From the NCBI GenBank assembly GCA_030154025.1, contig JASKKT010000014.1, forward strand, positions 1-47,337: DNA of 47,337 nucleotides, in the 5' to 3' direction. Positions 31,065-44,813 of this stretch are shown here, piece by piece. The position numbers and the translations under genes are program-made. The notes beneath the pieces are model-generated. The model had not been told where the DNA came from and did no database searches. It saw nothing but the letters and a program-made list of their open reading frames with translations. This DNA comes from Methanolobus sp. (GTDB lineage Archaea > Halobacteriota > Methanosarcinia > Methanosarcinales > Methanosarcinaceae). Each line of letters starts with the position of its first letter. Position 1 is the first letter of the stretch.

Positions 31065-31183
31065 AACTAAAAGAGTTTATTGATACGTTTTTTCTACTCT
31101 CGTCTGTTCCGACTTGTTTTCTCTCCCAAACTCCGGTCTTTATATACTCAACTACCTTTATTTTATTGTCTGAGGGGACAATA

Positions 31184-32482
31184 ATGGCAAACGATCCACA
31201 CATAATTGAGAAAAACCTATGTGGTATTTTCTCTCCTGACTGGCTACGCCAAACTGCTCACGAAACAGGTCTGGTAAAACGGGAACGAAAAATAGACCCA
31301 TTGATAATGTTTTGGGTTCTGACCCTGGGTTTTGGTGTTCAGCTTCAGCGCACTTTAGCCAGCCTTAAACGCAGTTATGAGAAAGCAGCTACTAAGAAAA
31401 TAAGCGATGGTGGCTGGTATGAACGTTTCACTCCTGAACTTGTGGCATTCCTCCGGGCTTGTGTTATGCACGGGATCGAACAACTTGCTCAAGAGCAGAA
31501 CAAACACCTGTCGGAAAAGCTTTCCCAATTCGAAGATGTACTGATCCAGGATAGCAGCATTGTTCGTCTACATAGCTCATTATCTGAAAAATGGCCTGCA
31601 ACACGGACACGAACGATAGCTGTAGGCGTAAAAGTAGGATTGCTGGTAAGTGCAGTAGCCAATGGGCCAAAAAATGTAGCTCTTTATGCTGAAAGCACTA
31701 ATGAATTGAAGACATTGCATATGGGACCATGGATCAAGAATAGAATCTTCCTTATTGATCTTGGATATTATAAGCATCAGTTATTCGCAAGGATCCAGGA
31801 TAACGGTGGTTACTTTGTGTCCAGATTGAAGAAAAATGCTGACCCACTGGTCGTCAATGTTAACAGTGTCCATAGAGGTCGAAGTATCGATGTTAAGGGA
31901 AAATGGATAAGTGAAGTGTTACCCCATCTGAAAAGACAGGTTCTCGATGTAGATGTGGAAGTTTCTTTCAAACGCCGAACTTATAATGGCAAGCAGAAAA
32001 ACGATACTGAGAATTTCCGATTGATTGCGATAATGAATAAAGAGACAGAGGAATATCATACATATATCACTAACATTCCGCAGGATGTACTGGATGCAGA
32101 AGACATTGCAAAGCTATATGGAGCCAGATGGGATATTGAATTAGTGTTCAAGGAACTCAAAAGCAGGTATGCAATGGATGTTGTAAACACAACCAATCCA
32201 AATATTGTTGAAGCATACATATGGATAGCATTACTGACGCTTCTTGTCAGTAGAAGAATATACACTATTGTAAGAAGTCACAATGAAAAAGAGATGATGA
32301 TAAGGTATACACAACTGCGATGGAGCACGATATTCTCAGAGAATGCGAATGGTCAACTTAGATCGATATTGAAATATTGTGGAATAGAAATGTCACTTGA
32401 GATGTTTATGGAAGTGTATTCGAGTCAAGCACTTGACCCACATGTCAATAGACAACGGTTTAGAGATCAGTGGTGGGCTTAA
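31184..32482 (+). CDS. IS4-family transposase
   Basis: A 432-residue DDE transposase that appears intact. The first catalytic Asp is in LIQDSSIVRLH (about 120), the second in FLIDLGYYKH (about 190). The IS4 signature YGARWDIELVFKELK has the Y-x2-R-x3-E-x6-K spacing and includes the catalytic Glu (about 315). The ATG at 31184 follows GAGGGGACAATA; an upstream in-frame codon at 31166 lacks a ribosome site. The IS4 family is secure; the ISH8-like subgroup is only a guess. Confidence 0.92.
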   Translation: MANDPHIIEKNLCGIFSPDWLRQTAHETGLVKRERKIDPLIMFWVLTLGFGVQLQRTLASLKRSYEKAATKKISDGGWYERFTPELVAFLRACVMHGIEQLAQEQNKHLSEKLSQFEDVLIQDSSIVRLHSSLSEKWPATRTRTIAVGVKVGLLVSAVANGPKNVALYAESTNELKTLHMGPWIKNRIFLIDLGYYKHQLFARIQDNGGYFVSRLKKNADPLVVNVNSVHRGRSIDVKGKWISEVLPHLKRQVLDVDVEVSFKRRTYNGKQKNDTENFRLIAIMNKETEEYHTYITNIPQDVLDAEDIAKLYGARWDIELVFKELKSRYAMDVVNTTNPNIVEAYIWIALLTLLVSRRIYTIVRSHNEKEMMIRYTQLRWSTIFSENANGQLRSILKYCGIEMSLEMFMEVYSSQALDPHVNRQRFRDQWWA

Positions 32483-32533: not shown

Positions 32534-33328
32534 ATGCGTTACACTTTGATCTCACTTGATATTTCTACAAAGAAAGTTCTGAAAAAGGATTTTATAGGTG
32601 CTGCTTTTCGCGGGTGGCTTGGTCATGCATTGAAGTGTGATACAAAGCGCTCCTGTGCTGACTGTGGAGATACTCTGCAATGTCCTTACTTTATGGTTTT
32701 CAGGGAACACAGTGAGGTCCGGCCTTATTCGCTAATGGCCTTCAAGGATAAAGAGAACATCACTGCCTTCATTCGTCTCTTTGGTGATAAGAAGAAAATG
32801 GCGCCCCGAATACTTTCAAGTATCAATGCAAGGAATGGAATACCTAATTTTGATGGTCTGGAATACAATATTGAGTCCATAGAAGCAAAGAATCTGGAGA
32901 TAAAACCTGTTAAAATGGGCAACATACTGCGTCTTGTTACAACATCGCCTCTTTCCCTTAAAAGCAATGGGCAGCTCGAGGTATTGCCTTCGTTCAATAC
33001 TCTTCTGCGCTCGTGCATAAGGAGTTACAATAAGATCACAAAGTACCATGACATTCAGAACTATCCTTTTCACGTCTCAGAAGAAATTCGGGATCTTGAT
33101 GCGGAACTACTTGATTTTGATGTACAGGTGGTAAAACACCAGCATACAAACATAAAAAAGAAGACAATAAAAATGGGGGGAATCAGTGGGTGGATGGACT
33201 ATGAGACATCCTCAATGCCCGCGGAAGTGGCAACTATTCTGGGAATGGGAGAATCCCTGCAAATTGGAAAACATACAGTATATGGATACGGAGGATTTAT
33301 GATGCTGGACCGGGAGGACTTGACTTGA
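32534..33328 (+). CDS. cas6: Cas6 CRISPR RNA endoribonuclease
   Basis: A 264-residue Cas6, which cuts the repeat RNA to release crRNAs. The N-terminal ferredoxin-like half has an inserted four-Cys site (C35, C41, C44, C50: CDTKRSCADCGDTLQC) often seen in archaeal type III Cas6. The C-terminal half ends in LGMGESLQIGKHTVYGYGGF, the glycine-rich loop of the family. A TTG at 32522 could extend the frame by four residues, but the promoter position favours ATG 32534. The stop overlaps the cas10 start. Confidence 0.88.
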   Translation: MRYTLISLDISTKKVLKKDFIGAAFRGWLGHALKCDTKRSCADCGDTLQCPYFMVFREHSEVRPYSLMAFKDKENITAFIRLFGDKKKMAPRILSSINARNGIPNFDGLEYNIESIEAKNLEIKPVKMGNILRLVTTSPLSLKSNGQLEVLPSFNTLLRSCIRSYNKITKYHDIQNYPFHVSEEIRDLDAELLDFDVQVVKHQHTNIKKKTIKMGGISGWMDYETSSMPAEVATILGMGESLQIGKHTVYGYGGFMMLDREDLT

Positions 33329-35679
33329 GTGAAAACATAGGAGTAACGGACTGGTTTACCAAAAAGAGGTCCAATGTGGATTACCCAACGCAAAGCGACA
33401 AGATGCTCGATAAGCTTGTTGCAGGAATTACAGATACCTTTAACACAGCATCAAAAATGAGTGATGTGGCCGACGGCATATATGATGTATTTGAAAGAGA
33501 CCCGTTCTTGAAAAGCATAAGTTCAGACTCTCGATTCCCGGTATGTTCTCTTTTCCATCACCTCAAAAACACATCTGGCATAGCTGTATGCCTATTGATA
33601 CAAAAAATGGAGGATGATTCTTCTTACGTTCAGAAATGTCTTGACGCCTATAACATAGGCTGTGAATACGATAAAAAAGATTTTATTGCACTTCTCAGAG
33701 TGGCTGCATTATTGCATGATATTGGCAAACCTCGCTCATACACATCTGATTCAAAATATCAGCAGTTCCATTATCATACAAAGCAGGGAAAGGAGATAAT
33801 AGATGATATTCTCTCCAGAACCACTTCAAAGCTTGTAGAGAGATTTGAGCTGAAAAAAATTCTTCCTCTGCTTGCATCCAGACATCATGGAAGGGATGTA
33901 GTGACAGACCTTGAAAGACTTTTGAGTACCGCAGACACAGTAGCCTCAGCAGCTGACCGAGTTAATGAGATAGAAGCTGGACTTGATTTGAAGAACGGCA
34001 TGCTCAAAGTATCAAGCCACGACAGGATATTCCCGCATGAGCTCAATTTCGATGCAGGGGGACTGAAATGCCTGGATACTCCACATACTGTGATTCTTGG
34101 GAACGGAAGCATTCAGGTAAAAAAAGTTAAACCGAAAGATGCCAATGCAATCAGTATCCAGCTATTTGTCGATAATACAACCGGTGGAGGGCCCGTGCAG
34201 TATCTGGGTTCCTCAAGTTCTCTAAAAGGTAAGATTGGCATCCTTTCCCTTGATATGACAGGCATCCAGGGCTTTATTGGCGAGGCCGAGAAGCTTAAAA
34301 TGCTAAGAGGTGGAAGCTTCCTTGTGAGCAAGACTCTTGAACTTGCAGCTGACGTCATCTCAAAACATGTCTGCAAAGAAGCTGTTCTTTTTGTGGGCGG
34401 TGGCAATCTACTCTCTTTTATGCCGGACACCCCAAACTACCGGGAGTTGCTAAAGAGGGAGATTAAAAAATGTATTTCTGATGAATCGAAAGAAGGACTA
34501 AAAGCGGCAGTTGTTGCATTCTCAATTGATATTGATGATGTTGCCCACGCTTTCGATAAAGTGCTGGAGAGATCTCAGGAACTGCTGGATATAGAAAAGA
34601 ACCGCACATATCATGTCCCTTCAATATCAGATAAGAAAGAGATCTGTAAGTTCTGTTCAACACGACCTCTTCCTGCAAGTGCTGAAATGTGCGAGGTCTG
34701 CACGGTCAAGAACCAGAGGGGTGAAAGTGAAAAGTGGGGACTATCAAAAAGGTATATAGAAAATACCTACGGTGCCAGTCGTCCTACCGAGCTTTCACAC
34801 TTGGGCAATTCCATAGGAGTGCTTATGGTAGATGGAAATATGATGGGACGGATGTTCCAGCAGACAACAACTCCTGCGGAATATACTTTCAAAAGCCAGA
34901 GTTTCGGATCAAGGTTCGATGAGATCCTCAAGAATACCATTGCAGATTTCCTGAAAAATGAACAGGTTCGTAGGGATCTGGTTATGGTCAGCAGGGAGGA
35001 TGGGAACTATCTAGGCATGGAAGTAGTCTATGCAGGGGGGGATGACATCCTGATTTTAATGAATGCTAAGGGCATCATCCAGTTTGCCGAAATCTTAGCA
35101 AAGAACATAGCGGGAGACTTCAAGTTCCAAAAAAAATTCCATGATACTAAGGTATTCAGTAACCCTGTTGTAACGGTCTCATGTGGTATAGCCATTGCAG
35201 ACCATAAATTCCCAATATACTTTTTGCTTGATGCTGCAAGAAAAATGGAATCGAAGGCAAAGGAAATATTCCGCGGGGCAACATTTACGGATGAGCTTGG
35301 TATCATCAGACTTCCAGAGGGAGCCATTGCTATAACAGGAATAAGCTCTGCAATGCCAAGCGATAATTCCAGTTGTTTTGTATTAGGAGATGGTGGCCAT
35401 GAAGAATCCTTCGTCCAGCTTAAAGGAATGATATCCATAGCTTTGAATAAGAAGAGCTCACGTGCCCTCCTCTCCGATCTGATCACATGTGGCGACTCTG
35501 AGCTAGAACGGCTGAACCTTATAAAGTACATGTACACATCTTTGCAGCGCAAGAGCAGCGATATCGGACTTGATGACTGCGAATGGATGGCAGGCATACT
35601 GAAAAATACTAAGGTCCTTGGCGCATCACGTATGATAATACCACATCTGTTGCACGGAAGTGAGGAGGGGTCTATATGA
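33325..35679 (+). CDS. cas10: Cas10, type III CRISPR large subunit with HD nuclease and cyclase
   Basis: A 784-residue Cas10 with every catalytic site present. The HD domain shows H78/H79, HD at 131-132 (ALLHDIGK), H151 and HH at 187-188, for single-stranded DNA cleavage. The first Palm domain begins near 305 (ILSLDMTGIQGFIG). A zinc finger uses C441, C444, C456 and C459. The second Palm domain carries YAGGDDILI with GGDD at 571-574, the site that makes cyclic oligoadenylates. The start is TTG at 33325, with GGGAGG 7 nt upstream and a TTGA overlap with cas6. The CARF proteins encoded downstream are the expected receivers of the signal. Confidence 0.95.
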   Translation: MSENIGVTDWFTKKRSNVDYPTQSDKMLDKLVAGITDTFNTASKMSDVADGIYDVFERDPFLKSISSDSRFPVCSLFHHLKNTSGIAVCLLIQKMEDDSSYVQKCLDAYNIGCEYDKKDFIALLRVAALLHDIGKPRSYTSDSKYQQFHYHTKQGKEIIDDILSRTTSKLVERFELKKILPLLASRHHGRDVVTDLERLLSTADTVASAADRVNEIEAGLDLKNGMLKVSSHDRIFPHELNFDAGGLKCLDTPHTVILGNGSIQVKKVKPKDANAISIQLFVDNTTGGGPVQYLGSSSSLKGKIGILSLDMTGIQGFIGEAEKLKMLRGGSFLVSKTLELAADVISKHVCKEAVLFVGGGNLLSFMPDTPNYRELLKREIKKCISDESKEGLKAAVVAFSIDIDDVAHAFDKVLERSQELLDIEKNRTYHVPSISDKKEICKFCSTRPLPASAEMCEVCTVKNQRGESEKWGLSKRYIENTYGASRPTELSHLGNSIGVLMVDGNMMGRMFQQTTTPAEYTFKSQSFGSRFDEILKNTIADFLKNEQVRRDLVMVSREDGNYLGMEVVYAGGDDILILMNAKGIIQFAEILAKNIAGDFKFQKKFHDTKVFSNPVVTVSCGIAIADHKFPIYFLLDAARKMESKAKEIFRGATFTDELGIIRLPEGAIAITGISSAMPSDNSSCFVLGDGGHEESFVQLKGMISIALNKKSSRALLSDLITCGDSELERLNLIKYMYTSLQRKSSDIGLDDCEWMAGILKNTKVLGASRMIIPHLLHGSEEGSI

Positions 35680-36344: not shown

Positions 36345-37462
36345 TAGAAATATCAGGCACAATGAAAGCACTGTCTTCTCTACATATAGGTACTGGTAAA
36401 AAGAGTGGAACCTTTGCAGACACCCTCGAGTATGTTCCTGGGAGGACCATACGCGGAATGCTTGGGTATTATCTTTACACAAATCATCGTGACCTTTTTG
36501 AAGAAATGAAGATTAGTGAAGATAATGACATGTCTAACACGAATGCCTTCTTCAAAAATGCTCTTCCCATGTCTAGTAGTGAAGCTGCGGGTTACAAAAG
36601 AACAGTAGCTAGTTCGTCCTCACTGAAATGGTGTAAAAAGTGCGGACATCTGATTGCAGAAGGCACAAAAGCTTGTAGCAATTTCGTGGATGGAAAGCCA
36701 TGTTTGCAGGAAGGGAAGAAAGTATCTGGGTTTATAACACTGGATTCTTTAGAAACAGGAAAACTTGAAAAGGCCTCCGTTGGAACGCATATCTCCACTA
36801 AATGTCCTATTACCCGAGACGGCCATACCAGCCCCGGATCTGATTTTGAGATCTCACCTTATCACGTCAAAAGTATAGTTCCAGGTACAGTCTTTGAGTT
36901 CAGATGTCTTGTTGAAGACTCGTTTGTAAATAAAGTCAAGAGCGCTCTTCATGAAGCGGGTATATTCTCTGGACTTGGTGGATATCGGTCAAGAGGCTAT
37001 GGAAGTGTGGCGTTCTCAGACCTGAAAGAAAAACCGGTCAATGATATCATACATGAAAGAGCCAAAGAGCTGTCTGACAAGAGTAATCTGATGATGGTGA
37101 CAAATTCATCGATGATACTTAAAGATGAAAATAATTCTGTCATCGGTTTTGATAGTACTTTTAAAGACTATATCTCAAAGTTCTGCTCCCTCCGAGGCTA
37201 CAAAGATGATTTTAATGTTCTATTTCACGGACAGGAAGCAGGGTCAGGTTTGCCACGGCAAATCATAACAAGAGGTGTCGCCAGAGGATGGTCTCTTAAA
37301 AACGGGAACCGGGTTTCAGAGATTGTTCGGTGCATAGGACCGGGAAGTTGTTTAATGGTCCGGGGAAACCCTGAATTGCTTGCAGCCCTCGAAATATATG
37401 GTATTGGAGAAATGACCAATAGTGGCTATGGAGATGTCTATTTTATGGAGGGACAGGTATGA
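36341..37462 (+). CDS. csx10: Csx10-like RAMP protein (Cas5-group)
   Basis: A 373-residue RAMP protein. The N-terminus LSSLHIGTGKKSGTFADTLEYVPGRTIRGMLG resembles Csx10, the Cas5-equivalent of subtype III-D that caps the crRNA 5' tag. A zinc site is formed by C98, C101, C112 and C121. FSGLGGYRSRGYGSVAF is the glycine-rich loop, and a C-terminal second RAMP-like half follows. It overlaps the genes on both sides by 4 nt. The family name is from sequence resemblance and gene order; confidence in the RAMP fold is higher than in the Csx10 label. Confidence 0.75.
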   Translation: MIEISGTMKALSSLHIGTGKKSGTFADTLEYVPGRTIRGMLGYYLYTNHRDLFEEMKISEDNDMSNTNAFFKNALPMSSSEAAGYKRTVASSSSLKWCKKCGHLIAEGTKACSNFVDGKPCLQEGKKVSGFITLDSLETGKLEKASVGTHISTKCPITRDGHTSPGSDFEISPYHVKSIVPGTVFEFRCLVEDSFVNKVKSALHEAGIFSGLGGYRSRGYGSVAFSDLKEKPVNDIIHERAKELSDKSNLMMVTNSSMILKDENNSVIGFDSTFKDYISKFCSLRGYKDDFNVLFHGQEAGSGLPRQIITRGVARGWSLKNGNRVSEIVRCIGPGSCLMVRGNPELLAALEIYGIGEMTNSGYGDVYFMEGQV

Positions 37463-37989
37463 GCAACAGCTCAAAGATCAATGCTGATTCATGGGAACTG
37501 GCACTGCTTGCCGTATTGAACAACAGAGGTAGCATACAGGCCTATTCTACAGCCCAGGTCAGAAAAATAATTGCTTCTGCACTGTCAGAGGATAATATTG
37601 CAGAGATACAGCGATTAAAGGTAGGCTATAATCCTGCTCCCCCACAAGGTAAAAAGCCAGACCAGGCACGCTTTGAGATCAAGGCTAAACGTGACAAGAA
37701 CGAGATTTTTGCAACTCATATCCTTCAGACATTGGGAAAATATGATAGACACGACCTTCAGCAGCTGATGCAGTATACATTATGGAACATCAAACTGCTT
37801 GAAGATAAAAAAGCTGTAAAAAATGCTGTTAGCTATGCTCAAAGGTTGGAACTACTTTTTGAATGTGAAGGAATTGACAAAAAGTCGGCTATGAGTAAGA
37901 TCAATCCATTACTTGAATCCGGGCAAAGCCCAAGGAATAACGATCGTAAGGATACCAGGGGTCCACAGAAGAACTACAGGAGGTATTGA
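37459..37989 (+). CDS. Small helical type III CRISPR protein of unknown family
   Basis: A 176-residue, mostly helical and basic protein. No catalytic motif is visible. Helices cover about 10-45, 80-115 and 118-150; the C-terminal 25 residues (SPRNNDRKDTRGPQKNYRRY) are basic and disordered-looking. Its position after the Csx10-like gene is where III-D loci carry csx19 or a small subunit, but I do not recognise the sequence as Csx19. It overlaps its upstream neighbour by 4 nt. Confidence 0.7.
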   Translation: MSNSSKINADSWELALLAVLNNRGSIQAYSTAQVRKIIASALSEDNIAEIQRLKVGYNPAPPQGKKPDQARFEIKAKRDKNEIFATHILQTLGKYDRHDLQQLMQYTLWNIKLLEDKKAVKNAVSYAQRLELLFECEGIDKKSAMSKINPLLESGQSPRNNDRKDTRGPQKNYRRY

Positions 37990-39254: not shown

Positions 39255-40572
39255 TACTTTCCAGAACAGATGGCAAATAACTGCAACGCTCACTCTTGTA
39301 ACACCCTTGCGCATCGGGGGAGGTCAGAATGCTGGTGCTTACTCAATGTCCCAGACACCTGTACTTCTTTCATACAATGCACAAAGCAAGACTGCTGAGC
39401 CTTATATCCCAGGCAGTAGCCTCAAGGGGGTTCTAAGAAGCACAGTAGAGCGCATGGTAAGAACATTCAACGAGAATGAGTCGTGCATGGGCGTCGGAGA
39501 CCGGAAAGCGGGCAAAGTACTGTGTGGTAGCATGACATGTATTTCATGCTCTATATTCGGTTCGCAGAACACCGGTGCATCCATTAGGGTACAAGACGCC
39601 CATGTTTCAAATGACGCAGGTAATCTGGGTATGCTTGAGGAAAGGCCGCACTGCGCAACAAAATACAGGATAAATAACAATACTGAAGAATATGAAGTCA
39701 TCACTGATAATAAGGGCAAACCAAAGTCTACTCCTCGATTTGAAGAGGTCATTGCTGCCAACACATCCTTTAATCTGGCAGTTAACCTTGACAATGCAAC
39801 TGAAACCGATGTCGGATTGATTGTCCTTGCGCTGAACGAGTTTAACCACAAGCGTTGCTATCTTGGAGGAGGAGCATCCAGAGGATATGGTTTTGCAGAT
39901 GTAGACCGCCTGAGAGTTACCAGAAGGACGGTTGCAGATGATGAGGATTTCCTGTTCAATGTAGACTCAGAGCAAATAGATCCCTATCAATTCTGTGATG
40001 CCGCAAGAAGATACCTGGCTAAGATAAATGACGGAAAGGAAGTTTCTCGCAGGGATTTTGATGTCTATTACAAGGCCTATTCCAATGATAGGCTTGAAGG
40101 GAATATAGTGGTTAAATATGATGTAGAAACGCTTACAGATTTCCAGATGCCAGGTATTGATGAGGCCACAGTGACAAATATGGGCGTACCGGTAATTCCC
40201 GGTTCAACCATCAAGGGGTTTTTGCGCCATACTCTCATTGAAAGTGGAACATCTTCAGGGGTTATTGATGATATGTTCGGTTCTAAGAACACACACCGCT
40301 CCAGAGTGATAGTATCGGATGCTTTTTCGATGGACGATTTTGCGGGCCGTGATGTTATACCACAGGGTACACACCTTTCCATGTGGATAGCTTTTGATAA
40401 TGTCACAAAGGAACAACTGCTCCAGATCAGCGACATAATGGAATCTAAATGCCGCATAACAGGAAAAAGAGTTGCTAATGTAGACAGATCGGGCAATGCT
40501 TCAAAGAACATGGTCGAGTTTGAAGCAACTGAAGTACAAAAGTTCCAGATAGAAGAATTCCTGGCAGAATGA
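39241..40572 (+). CDS. Tandem Cas7-Cas7 RAMP fusion
   Basis: A 443-residue protein with two RAMP units. Unit one (about 10-230) has PYIPGSSLKGVLRSTVERMV at 55-74, a Cys site (C82, C95, C100, C103) and the glycine loop LGGGASRGYGFAD. Where Csm3 has its catalytic Asp this unit has Gln (Q38 in SQTPVLL). Unit two (about 285-443) has VPVIPGSTIKGFLRH at 316-330 and keeps an Asp, D307, at that place, but lacks a clear C-terminal glycine loop and is shorter. The ATG at 39241 follows AGTGGTGAGT. The protein would fill two backbone positions, one with a cutting site. Confidence 0.82.
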   Translation: MSRFDTFQNRWQITATLTLVTPLRIGGGQNAGAYSMSQTPVLLSYNAQSKTAEPYIPGSSLKGVLRSTVERMVRTFNENESCMGVGDRKAGKVLCGSMTCISCSIFGSQNTGASIRVQDAHVSNDAGNLGMLEERPHCATKYRINNNTEEYEVITDNKGKPKSTPRFEEVIAANTSFNLAVNLDNATETDVGLIVLALNEFNHKRCYLGGGASRGYGFADVDRLRVTRRTVADDEDFLFNVDSEQIDPYQFCDAARRYLAKINDGKEVSRRDFDVYYKAYSNDRLEGNIVVKYDVETLTDFQMPGIDEATVTNMGVPVIPGSTIKGFLRHTLIESGTSSGVIDDMFGSKNTHRSRVIVSDAFSMDDFAGRDVIPQGTHLSMWIAFDNVTKEQLLQISDIMESKCRITGKRVANVDRSGNASKNMVEFEATEVQKFQIEEFLAE

Positions 40573-41069
40573 CCATGAAATACTGGATAACGTTCATTGG
40601 CTCAAGCCCCTTCGCCGTGATTAACACCATATGGGCTGCATGCAAGATAGATGGCTTTGTCCCTGATAAATTGATTTTCCTTGTCAACCGAGATCTTTGG
40701 GCAGGCTGGATTAACGATGTAAAGCATTGGGTACCTTTGGTAATCTCCGGGTATTCCTCAAAATCTTCAGAAATGGTTTTTCATGAAGTTAAGGAAACTG
40801 ACTTTTCCACTATCAAGAATGCTTATAGGAATTATATGAAGAATCTCAGCAAAGAAGATGAGGTAGCCATAGATATTACGCCTGGCAGGAAGTATATGTC
40901 TGCTATTGCAATGGAAATTGGTTTATCAATGAATGCAGACCACGTTTATTATCTTCATTTGACCGACAGACAGTACGAGAATAGTCCCTATCCGGTTATT
41001 CCTGTGTTCAGGCATACTCTGATAGACCTTAAAAAAGAATTCGAGGAAACTGCACCAAGAGGTCTTTGA
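40569..41069 (+). CDS. Stand-alone CARF-domain protein
   Basis: A 166-residue protein that looks like a CARF domain and nothing else. FIGSSPFAVINTIWAA (9-24) is the first ligand loop after strand one, and DITPGRKYMSAIA (102-114) is the second conserved loop (usually D-x-T-G-G-x-K). CARF domains bind cyclic oligoadenylate made by Cas10. No effector domain is fused, and the PIN nuclease gene begins on the very next base, so the two proteins may act together. The start overlaps the previous stop (ATGA). Confidence 0.72.
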   Translation: MTMKYWITFIGSSPFAVINTIWAACKIDGFVPDKLIFLVNRDLWAGWINDVKHWVPLVISGYSSKSSEMVFHEVKETDFSTIKNAYRNYMKNLSKEDEVAIDITPGRKYMSAIAMEIGLSMNADHVYYLHLTDRQYENSPYPVIPVFRHTLIDLKKEFEETAPRGL

Positions 41070-42101
41070 ATGATAATACCAAAGAACTACCTCATCTCAC
41101 TGTTCAACGAGATAAAGTCACATACTGGCTCAGTTGAAGTCGTATATCCTCCTATTGGAACGCTCTTTAAAGTGGATTTTGGGGACACCTGTACTCTGTA
41201 CACTATGCCCATTAAGATATATCAGGAAAAAAGAGAATCACTGTTCCGGTGGAAGCATGGGTCCGTGCTTGATAAAGAAGTCCCTACTCATAATGACCTG
41301 CAGGTATGCTATTATGCTGCCTCTTTATGGAGATCGGATAATGAACCGGAACTGATAGAGATTATTCGTGAAGGATGCAACAGAGATCTATTAAAAGGTC
41401 AGAAGCCCCTATTCATAGGATATGATACAAATTCCATGCGCCATCAGACAACTCGTGTGGTCGAAGATATTGTTTCACACATTTCAAGAAAAGGCAATAC
41501 CAGTATGGGATACTGCCTTAGCGAGAATGTAAAGGCAGAATTAAGATATCAATGGGATGCGAAATACAGATTTGAAGAGATTAAAGAATTGGCAACGCAT
41601 CTTCCTTTTGCAAACAAGTTCCTGAACCAGCCACCAAAGGACGCTCGAATGGCTAGGCTTGGAGCTGTGGAATATAAGAGGATAATGTCACTGCCAAACT
41701 GTCAGGAAACAGACGGTAAAGGAAGAACTGGTGATGAAAAAATCATCAATTCATATGAATCCTTCAGAGACAAGCGCAATGTGGATATCCTGCTTATCAG
41801 TGGAGATAACAATTTTGTGGCAATGGCCCATGAAGAGAGGATGCAGGCCATTTATATGAAACAGCCTGTAAGACACCATGATGTATTGGAGCTTAGATGG
41901 GAAGACGTTACAGAGATGATATACATTGTGGCCATTGTTTTTGGGTATATCCAGATAAACGGTATATCCGTCTTTGGATCATGGAAGGGTAAACTGGAAG
42001 AGGATTGGGACAGGTGCAGGCTATACATTGATGCTCTAGATGACAATCAGAAAAAGTTTCTTTTCAAGGATCTCGAGATACTGATAAAAGGCCAGTCCTG
42101 A
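41070..42101 (+). CDS. PIN-domain nuclease of the CRISPR operon
   Basis: A 343-residue protein. The N-terminal 110 residues are unassigned. The rest fits a PIN RNase: FIGYDTNSM (D119), SENVKAEL (E157 likely), GDEKIINSYESF (D222) and VDILLISGDNNFVAMA (D239, D246), in the order and spacing of the PIN acidic set. No CARF domain is seen in the same chain. The gene follows the CARF gene with no gap. A nuclease switched on by, or working with, the CARF partner is inference. The family is not one I know as a standard type III accessory. Confidence 0.7.
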   Translation: MIIPKNYLISLFNEIKSHTGSVEVVYPPIGTLFKVDFGDTCTLYTMPIKIYQEKRESLFRWKHGSVLDKEVPTHNDLQVCYYAASLWRSDNEPELIEIIREGCNRDLLKGQKPLFIGYDTNSMRHQTTRVVEDIVSHISRKGNTSMGYCLSENVKAELRYQWDAKYRFEEIKELATHLPFANKFLNQPPKDARMARLGAVEYKRIMSLPNCQETDGKGRTGDEKIINSYESFRDKRNVDILLISGDNNFVAMAHEERMQAIYMKQPVRHHDVLELRWEDVTEMIYIVAIVFGYIQINGISVFGSWKGKLEEDWDRCRLYIDALDDNQKKFLFKDLEILIKGQS

Positions 42102-42122
42102 TTTAAGTTTCCTAAGTGCTTT

Positions 42123-43343
42123 GTGATAATTACAGGAGGTTTATCTCTGAAAAATGAATTGGGAGATGAGGTGCCTTCTCATATAGAAAAGAAGGCAAAT
42201 GAGCTTGGATGCCATAAAGGAGTAACTTATGTTTACAGAGAAGGATCTTACGGATCAAGCGGGATGCCTGCTTCCAGTATAGGTGGTAAAAGGGCTCACA
42301 GATTCGGGGATAGAATATCCTTTGAAGCGAATAAAGTCAAGCTAGGGGATGGCTGGGTTGCTTTCAGGCCACCTTCAGGGGGAGGAGTAGCTGTACGTAA
42401 TAACAAAGCATCCACACCCTATCTGGTAAACAATAAAGACCCAATATTAGGTGACTTTGATAATGCCGATGGGCTCTGGAAGAGCTTTGATGAGCATCTG
42501 CAAGGTGTCACAGCAACACCAGTTCGCAGGAAGTGCCAAGAGATATTAGAAGTAGCCCTGTCTTGTCAGAATAAAGGTATCCAGACTTTTAGCAGGAAAG
42601 ATGGTTTTTCATGTATCATAAAAGGTCTGAAAGTGGCTCAGCTGCATATAAAGCCCTCTTCATTTTCCATGAAACTTGCCAGTTATTCTGAGAAATCGAT
42701 GTCCCGTAAGGTGAACAGGCTAGAGGTAAAGTATGACTTTGATAGTGATAACGTCGACTCCGTTGTGACCGAGGATATCAGACAGCATTTACTGCAGCAA
42801 TCTGAGATTATACTCAGCTTAAGAAAAGAAGGCAGCATCGGCTATGAAGAGAAATGGCTTCATGGACTGCTGATAAATAAAATGAAGGAAGGAGGGTTAT
42901 CTGAGCTTGGACTGGATTTTCTCCGTTACGAAACATCTCTGGGGAAGATAAAACGCAATATCCGCTTTGGAAGAATGCATGCCGACATCCTGGCACGTGA
43001 ACGTAGTACTTGCTCACTTGCAGTTGTTGAGGTCAAGATTAGATCTTCTGAAATGAAGGAAGCAGTGGTCCAGGGTTTATCCTATGTTGAGTGGCTAAAC
43101 ACCTACAAGGCACAGCTAATTCCAAGGGTGAACAAACTTGATTGGGACGTGAACTTTGAACCAGTCAAACTTTATGTTATCGCTCCTGGATCTAGCGTCC
43201 CTCTAGATGAGATTAACAAAATAATAAGAGATTATCAGGGAAGAATAGCAGGAGATATTTATTCCGTTTTGCTCAATGCAGACTGGCATATTAACGAAGG
43301 GCTGAGGATTATGGACAAGAGAATAGTACATGGGGATTTCTAG
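42123..43343 (+). CDS. RecB-like PD-(D/E)XK nuclease of the CRISPR operon
   Basis: Up to 406 residues. The C-terminal part shows GRMHADIL (D288), VVEVKIRS (E303, K305) and VQGLSYVEWL (Q317, Y321), which together make the D-ExK-QxxxY motif of RecB-type nucleases. The N-terminal 230 residues are unassigned. The start is uncertain: GTG 42123 has no ribosome site, while AGGAGGT at 42134-42140 lies inside the frame and points to CTG at 42147; the nearby ATG at 42154 is out of frame. The coding part is certain from at least 42160. Confidence 0.7.
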   Translation: MIITGGLSLKNELGDEVPSHIEKKANELGCHKGVTYVYREGSYGSSGMPASSIGGKRAHRFGDRISFEANKVKLGDGWVAFRPPSGGGVAVRNNKASTPYLVNNKDPILGDFDNADGLWKSFDEHLQGVTATPVRRKCQEILEVALSCQNKGIQTFSRKDGFSCIIKGLKVAQLHIKPSSFSMKLASYSEKSMSRKVNRLEVKYDFDSDNVDSVVTEDIRQHLLQQSEIILSLRKEGSIGYEEKWLHGLLINKMKEGGLSELGLDFLRYETSLGKIKRNIRFGRMHADILARERSTCSLAVVEVKIRSSEMKEAVVQGLSYVEWLNTYKAQLIPRVNKLDWDVNFEPVKLYVIAPGSSVPLDEINKIIRDYQGRIAGDIYSVLLNADWHINEGLRIMDKRIVHGDF

Positions 43344-44813
43344 ATGAATGATGTGTTCAACGTTATACGTGGCAGAGTAAAAAATAAAGCAGATCTTGAT
43401 AATGTGCTTGAAGAGTTAAAGCTCTTTCAGGATAGTTCAGACACGGGTGTCCTCAGAGATGTATCTTCAAGGCTTTTCCCCTATGAGAAAAGATACATCG
43501 AGCATTATAAGGGCGATTGCGACGTGCTGATATGTACAGTGGGTATGCGTGAAAGCCCTATAATCCTTTCTCTGCTAGCTGTCATGCCTAAAACTGCTGT
43601 TCTTTTGCATACTGAAGGATCTCTTAAGACAATTGAAAGGATAGTCACGGACCAGAGTGTTATCGATTCCGGGATGAAACTGGAGATGGTGATGATCGAT
43701 GAGGTGGACGCAGCAAAAAACTATCGAATACTGAAAGAGGATGTGCTTCCAAGGACTCTGAACAGGCGTGTGAGGATAGACCCCACTGGCGGTAGAAAGA
43801 TCATGGGAACAGCTGTCGGCGCATTTGCGTTCTTTTTCAGGATACCTATGATATACCTGCACGCGGAAGAAAAGATGGGGGTCAGTGTACCCTTCAGCGG
43901 AAGTATCCGAGATATCGACAATCCTTTCGAATATTTCGGGGATATTGATATGAAGATGCTGAAGGACAATTTTGACCACGGATACTTTGGTGCGGCTTTT
44001 GAAGTCTGTGAAAAGTTGAGTGAAACCGTACACGATGCAGCCCTTTTCACAAAGATCGGACTTATTCGGGAGCTTACAGAAGTCTATAGTGACTGGGATG
44101 GGTTTGTCCATAGCCGATATTATAAGAGCAAGAAGGAAAGGGAAAGCTCCACTTATCTTGCCAAGAGACTTGAATCGATTGTATCCAGATGTGACAGGCT
44201 TGGTTTTAAGCTACTGAACAGCAAGGATGCGGAAAGAAATATCTCATTCCTCAAGGCACTTGAAGATAACTGGGAATGCAGATCTAACATTACTGACAGA
44301 TTCCGTCTTATTGATGTATACATGAATGCAAATCGTAGGGCAGAACAGGGCCTTTTTGATGATGCTACTGCACGTATGTACCGTTGTTTTGAGATCTGTG
44401 CCACTCTTTTGCTTGAGAAGGAAGGTATCAGCAATCTTAGCAGGATAGATTACGAGAGCTTTGCGCAGAGGCATGACATGGATGTACTTTCTATAAAGAA
44501 GAGATTCAAAGAGTTGTCAGGTTTTGATGAACCGAGATCTCCTCCTGGGCTGAATGACCAGATGGTGCTCCTCCAGATAATCAACAATCCTGCGGGCAAG
44601 ATATATGCTGGCATGAATGAGTCTGCTGATAAAGGAGAAAGCATCCGCGACAAGAGAAACCGTTCAATCCTGGCTCACGGCACAAGTCCTATCAGCAAAG
44701 AAGATTACCTTTCTTTTGAAAGGGAAACTACTAAAATAGTGATAGTGACGCTTGGAAACGCTACGTTCAAAACGCTTTGTGAACAGGCTACCTTCCCAAA
44801 ACTTATGGTGTGA
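43344..44813 (+). CDS. Csm6/Csx1-like CARF-HEPN ribonuclease
   Basis: A 489-residue protein. The N-terminal CARF domain has VLICTVGMRESP (61-72) and RIDPTGGRKIMGTA (144-157), the ligand-binding loops. The C-terminal HEPN domain has RNRSILAH (438-445), an R-x4-H RNase motif with R440 and H445. Such proteins degrade RNA when cyclic oligoadenylate binds the CARF domain. The sequence resembles the TIGR02710 group. It starts directly after the preceding stop codon. Confidence 0.88.
   Translation: MNDVFNVIRGRVKNKADLDNVLEELKLFQDSSDTGVLRDVSSRLFPYEKRYIEHYKGDCDVLICTVGMRESPIILSLLAVMPKTAVLLHTEGSLKTIERIVTDQSVIDSGMKLEMVMIDEVDAAKNYRILKEDVLPRTLNRRVRIDPTGGRKIMGTAVGAFAFFFRIPMIYLHAEEKMGVSVPFSGSIRDIDNPFEYFGDIDMKMLKDNFDHGYFGAAFEVCEKLSETVHDAALFTKIGLIRELTEVYSDWDGFVHSRYYKSKKERESSTYLAKRLESIVSRCDRLGFKLLNSKDAERNISFLKALEDNWECRSNITDRFRLIDVYMNANRRAEQGLFDDATARMYRCFEICATLLLEKEGISNLSRIDYESFAQRHDMDVLSIKKRFKELSGFDEPRSPPGLNDQMVLLQIINNPAGKIYAGMNESADKGESIRDKRNRSILAHGTSPISKEDYLSFERETTKIVIVTLGNATFKTLCEQATFPKLMV

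Follow-up and report, generated by a model that had tools for sequence, protein, structure and literature searches.

The window, that is, the whole stretch of 47,337 nucleotides from Methanolobus sp. that was analyzed here, contains an operon with the gene order cas6, cas10, RAMP genes, csm2, RAMP genes, CARF, PIN, the nuclease gene under study, CARF-HEPN, cas1 and cas2, followed by a CRISPR array. Since Cas10 carries both HD and GGDD motifs, and PADLOC recognized the Cas5 as Csx10-like and the small subunit as Csm2 gr11, the host system is inferred to be III-D-like and would be capable of cyclic oligoadenylate (cOA) signaling. The coordinates of the features are collected in Table 1.

Table 1. 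The nuclease gene, its domains and its neighbors in the window.
Feature	Position	Strand	Remarks
cas10 with HD and GGDD (cyclase) motifs	33325..35679	+	
Upstream neighbor, PIN effector	41070..42101	+	C-terminal partner of split CARF/PIN pair
Remnant of ancestral PIN/CARF-HEPN junction, AAGTGCTTTGTGATAATTA (predicted)	42114..42132	+	Matches AAGTGCTTTATGATGGTTA in G111
Shine-Dalgarno AGGAGG	42134..42139	+	Perfect motif, 7 nt upstream of CTG 42147
Modular nuclease, probable true coding region	42147..43343	+	398 aa, CTG start
Exchangeable N-terminal domain, residues ~9-95	42147..42407	+	Methanosarcinales-specific, without a family in the searched libraries
Constant middle alpha+beta domain, residues ~105-235	42435..42827	+	Fold weakly resembles YdhG/DUF1801 and YjbR
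Predicted NucS/DUF91-like PD-(D/E)XK nuclease domain	42828..43322	+	Conserved residues, profile match, low-confidence fold match
Nuclease residue codons	E270 42930, D288 42984, E303 43029, K305 43035, Q317 43071, Y321 43083		
Downstream neighbor, CARF-HEPN (Csx1/Csm6-like)	43344..44813	+	ATG directly after the nuclease stop codon
CRISPR array at contig end	46432..47337	+	Repeat family shared with the orphan array next to the relative in G119

Other features of this operon were also recorded. CARF (40569-41069) and PIN (41070-42101) are encoded separately, as a conserved split sensor/effector pair, both in the window and in the four related operons L097-L100, and the corresponding PADLOC model, CARF_m1--CARF_PIN, is fused. 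A 176-aa ORF before csm2 (37459-37989), with no PADLOC match, is kept in all five related operons at 26-38% identity and is possibly an unnamed subunit. A DDE transposase gene (31166-32482) lies directly upstream of cas6. In the related operon of G041, cas10 is split into two ORFs (L100:1670-4260) and cas1 appears truncated.

Sequence inspection found the reading frame of the nuclease, 42123-43343 on the forward strand, open and intact. Its GTG at 42123 falls within 42114-42132, a segment that forms the junction and the start of CARF-HEPN in related operons. Relatives with the same N-terminal domain start with M-x-NEL or a near variant, and their initiator ATG/Met aligns with the CTG at 42147. 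Because of this alignment, of the Shine-Dalgarno motif just upstream of the CTG and of the position of GTG 42123 on CARF-HEPN-start sequence, the start codon is probably CTG 42147 and not GTG 42123, which would give a protein of 398 aa. The gene has the same codon usage as the operon, so a foreign origin by composition was dropped, and it is probably co-transcribed with the III-D-like operon.

Modular architecture of the protein

The C-terminal domain is a predicted PD-(D/E)XK nuclease of the NucS/DUF91 type, RecB-like in its motifs. The residues D288, E303, K305, Q317 and Y321, which the preliminary description had read in the motif order of RecB nucleases, do follow that order (catalytic D, ExK, Q, Y) and are conserved in the relatives: E270, D288, E303, K305, Y321 and W324 are invariant across the window protein and 10 homologues, and all but one of these 11 proteins have Q317. 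When the nuclease half was compared by hhalign with archaeal proteins carrying NucS_C-like and DUF5655 domains, a match over 90 columns was obtained (probability 96%, E=4e-9, 30% identity), which places the nuclease motif far beyond chance. The Pfam NucS_C profile gave weak, sub-threshold matches in seven of the 11 members, and no single-sequence Pfam match rose above the cut-off. A match to SHLD1_C in two of the 11 members, also below the cut-off, was dropped as chance similarity. Additionally, a Foldseek search with a low-confidence model of a relative retrieved the Shedu nuclease 8ti9 (prob 0.99, rmsd 2.7, 87 columns).

The N-terminal half of about 230 residues had been described as one unrecognized region. 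Searches of Pfam, NCBIfam, PADLOC and PDB sequences, which between them covered the whole protein, the core and the N-terminal domain, gave no match to it, in keeping with that description, but it is made up of two modules, an exchangeable domain (residues ~9-95) and a constant one (~105-235), and is not one unit. AlphaFold models built from four sequences had mean pLDDT values of 50 and 59, with the N-terminal domain below 50, too low for a statement on its fold; the middle domain was modeled with moderate to high confidence as two helices and a five-stranded sheet. The best Foldseek matches of the middle domain were YdhG/DUF1801 and YjbR, all with E above 0.02, a weak resemblance between predicted folds that is suggestive only. 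Homology of this domain is claimed neither to these families nor to DUF5655, for which the profile comparison gave a probability of 0.9%.

The N-terminal domain of ~90 aa, which on its own had no Pfam or PDB relative, was found in 13 of the 238 genomes of the class, all of them Methanosarcinales. Its hosts are this nuclease (three proteins in three genomes), FGE-sulfatase membrane proteins (five genomes, two of them checked against Pfam), a family of uncharacterized proteins of ~415-557 aa and, in a single case, a PheRS-alpha (L024:514-2262), where it lies between the N-terminal winged-helix part and the catalytic domain. It also stands alone as a 101-aa ORF. A tandem 48-bp (16-aa) repeat of varying copy number was observed in two of the FGE-sulfatase proteins with this domain (L112:10379-11050 and L114:10211-10786). 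A zinc finger in the ~90-aa domain of the window protein was considered and dropped, as no conserved Cys/His set was found there.

The other eight relatives have two CxxCxxWH...H repeats in front of the nuclease core in place of the ~90-aa domain (six proteins, and two more with truncated or frame-shifted N-termini); this tandem module is zinc-finger-like by its pattern. The two front-end types separate as one change in the tree of the core, with modest support (72/84), and the window copy sits on a long branch. The family is, as far as its sequences tell, modular, with front ends swapped over a constant core.

Relatives, related operons and CRISPR arrays

In overlapping genome draws of the class (238 genomes) and the phylum (393), the nuclease core was confined to Methanosarcinales; the weak matches outside this order that were inspected proved to be DUF91 proteins or other nucleases. 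Within the order the family occurs sporadically, several genomes contain decayed fragments of it, and no relatives were found on plasmids, phages or viral contigs at the sensitivity used. The family sample comprised about 12 relatives, some of them on short contigs, and within it only the window copy lies in a cas10 locus, so that recurrent presence in such loci was not found. No other relative was seen beside cas10, and the Cas10 matches in their genomes are on other contigs; most of the relatives are solitary genes. Moreover, four genomes with a relative (G119, G023, G070, and G072) had no Cas10 palm and no RAMP, and no Csm1 match except one to the HD region in G119; G016, with no Cas10 match but with RAMPs, was left out of this count. 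Homologues were thus found largely outside CRISPR loci, a pattern that the preliminary description had named as one that would refute its reading. Given the relatives in genomes where neither Cas10 nor RAMP was detected, it is unlikely that the family requires a cOA signal.

Three orthologous operons (G143, G111, and G105), with Cas10 proteins about 55% identical to that of the window, share the gene order of the window except that CARF-HEPN follows PIN immediately and the nuclease gene is missing; it is also absent from a fourth related operon, that of G041. Because of the adjacency in the three orthologous operons, the simplest reading is that the nuclease gene would have entered the PIN/CARF-HEPN junction once, in the lineage of the window. 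The protein had been described as lying in a type III operon; its gene does lie inside a III-D-like one, but it is not a regular part of the type III system.

CRISPR arrays adjoin three of the about 12 nuclease loci: the window, G044, where the array is of type I-E and is accompanied by cas genes, and G119, where the relative directly follows an orphan array similar to that of the window in both repeat and leader. Two contigs of G119 overlap by 161 identical bases, which joins them into one array with a ~90-aa-domain protein upstream and the nuclease downstream. The orphan array (L119 and L005; contigs C8 and C24) is thus flanked on both sides by ~90-aa-domain proteins, in a genome without a RAMP or Cas10 match. 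No arrays were found near ten other ~90-aa-domain loci within the fetched stretch, which for most of them extended about 10 kb to either side. For three of 12 copies at arrays the binomial probability was 0.0002-0.02, with assumed backgrounds of 1-5% and a count made post hoc. The proximity to arrays is unexplained and is taken as a lead only.

Possible roles of the nuclease

Several known nucleases share part of this plan. NucS/EndoMS and other DUF91 (PF01939) proteins, including the archaeal DUF91+DUF5655 ones, have the same C-terminal RecB-like nuclease, with the motif order D..ExK..Q...Y/W. In NucS/EndoMS an N-terminal DNA-binding domain precedes the nuclease (PMC5290159), but none was found by Pfam in residues 1-235 of the window protein. 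DUF5655 was likewise not detected in it; its extra domains precede the nuclease and its distribution is sporadic. Shedu (SduA, DUF4263) has a variable front end before the nuclease, a plan like that of the window protein, and its nuclease gave the fold match to the low-confidence model of a relative; no match to the DUF4263 profile was found in Pfam or PADLOC. Can1, Can2 and Card1 are also PD-(D/E)XK nucleases of type III operons next to CARF effectors, but they have a CARF sensor in the same protein. The absence of CARF, by which the preliminary description had set the window protein apart from these three, was upheld: Pfam, NCBIfam and PADLOC found none in the nuclease and did find CARF in both neighbors. 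In further contrast to Can1, Can2 and Card1, relatives of the window protein occur in genomes without detectable type III systems, and the gene is missing from related operons. The cOA effectors, PD-(D/E)xK ones included, are presented as sensor-effector proteins in the available portions of two accounts (PMC12669027 and PMC11229360), and the present family is not described among the cOA effectors in those portions.

With somewhat more confidence than doubt, we favor the reading that the protein is an accessory nuclease that works independently of cOA, has swappable front ends for targeting and is a passenger in the operon. The gene would have entered the III-D-like operon between PIN and CARF-HEPN; the N-terminal module would most likely recognize the substrate, either DNA or a partner bound to DNA, and the C-terminal nuclease would then cut it. 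The locus would thereby gain a DNA-cutting arm, presumably for defense, without cOA sensing. At the sequence level this reading draws on the modularity, the intact catalytic residues, the insertion at an otherwise empty junction and the relatives in genomes without detectable type III systems. Of the two functions proposed earlier for the N-terminal half, a type III sensor is unsupported, but a nucleic-acid-binding or targeting module may well be correct. Some observations run against a passenger: its presence at arrays appears more frequent than would be expected of a pure passenger, and the nuclease stop codon followed directly by the CARF-HEPN ATG, together with the operon-like codon usage, fits a functional link. 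The solitary relatives are not in clear defense islands, so that a defense role is putative.

A rival reading is a dedicated type III auxiliary effector, in which the N-terminal or middle domain would bind a nucleotide made by Cas10 or dock on the type III complex and so activate the nuclease. The gene sits in an effector cluster and is tightly coupled to CARF-HEPN, the operon combines an HD and cyclase Cas10 with two CARF effectors, and the G119 relative adjoins an array of the same repeat family. We nevertheless regard this role as unlikely, considering the four genomes with neither Cas10 nor RAMP, the orthologous operons that lack the gene, the lack of CARF similarity and the presence of the N-terminal domain in FGE-sulfatase proteins and inside PheRS-alpha. 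The clean one-gene insertion, the sporadic presence, the decayed copies and the association with unrelated CRISPR types (III-D-like, I-E and orphan) would also suit a selfish or homing-type free-standing nuclease gene, one that spreads through cleavage and insertion close to CRISPR arrays or operon junctions and brings its host no benefit. However, no direct repeat of more than 6 nt was found between the insert ends, no common target was seen, most copies lie away from arrays and the codon usage matches that of the operon, all of which makes such a gene unlikely. Finally, the closest nuclease profile, the NucS/DUF91 group, would fit a housekeeping DNA-repair enzyme, a NucS/EndoMS-like cutter of mismatched or branched DNA that is in the operon by chance; this is improbable for a protein that is sporadic rather than universal, has exchanged front ends and showed no NucS N-terminal domain by family search.

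The window protein would therefore be a new domain combination of a known kind of nuclease, probably an accessory that acts independently and is carried along as a passenger. It is one of a small group of NucS-like nucleases whose front ends are interchangeable and which are unnamed in the searched libraries. A direct comparison with empty sites, as made here, tells a true type III effector apart from a passenger gene. A more speculative proposal, which we hold to be a long shot, is that the ~90-aa domain is a Methanosarcinales-specific adaptor tethering different enzymes to a shared target, which in this genus would bring the NucS-like nuclease to CRISPR arrays or type III complexes. The two different proteins with this domain on either side of the G119 orphan array belong to this proposal. 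If it holds, a nuclease would be added to CRISPR independently of cOA, and archaea would have a route for attaching nucleases to targets that needs no second messenger. Otherwise, the family would serve as a warning against calling every nuclease of a type III operon a sensor-driven effector.
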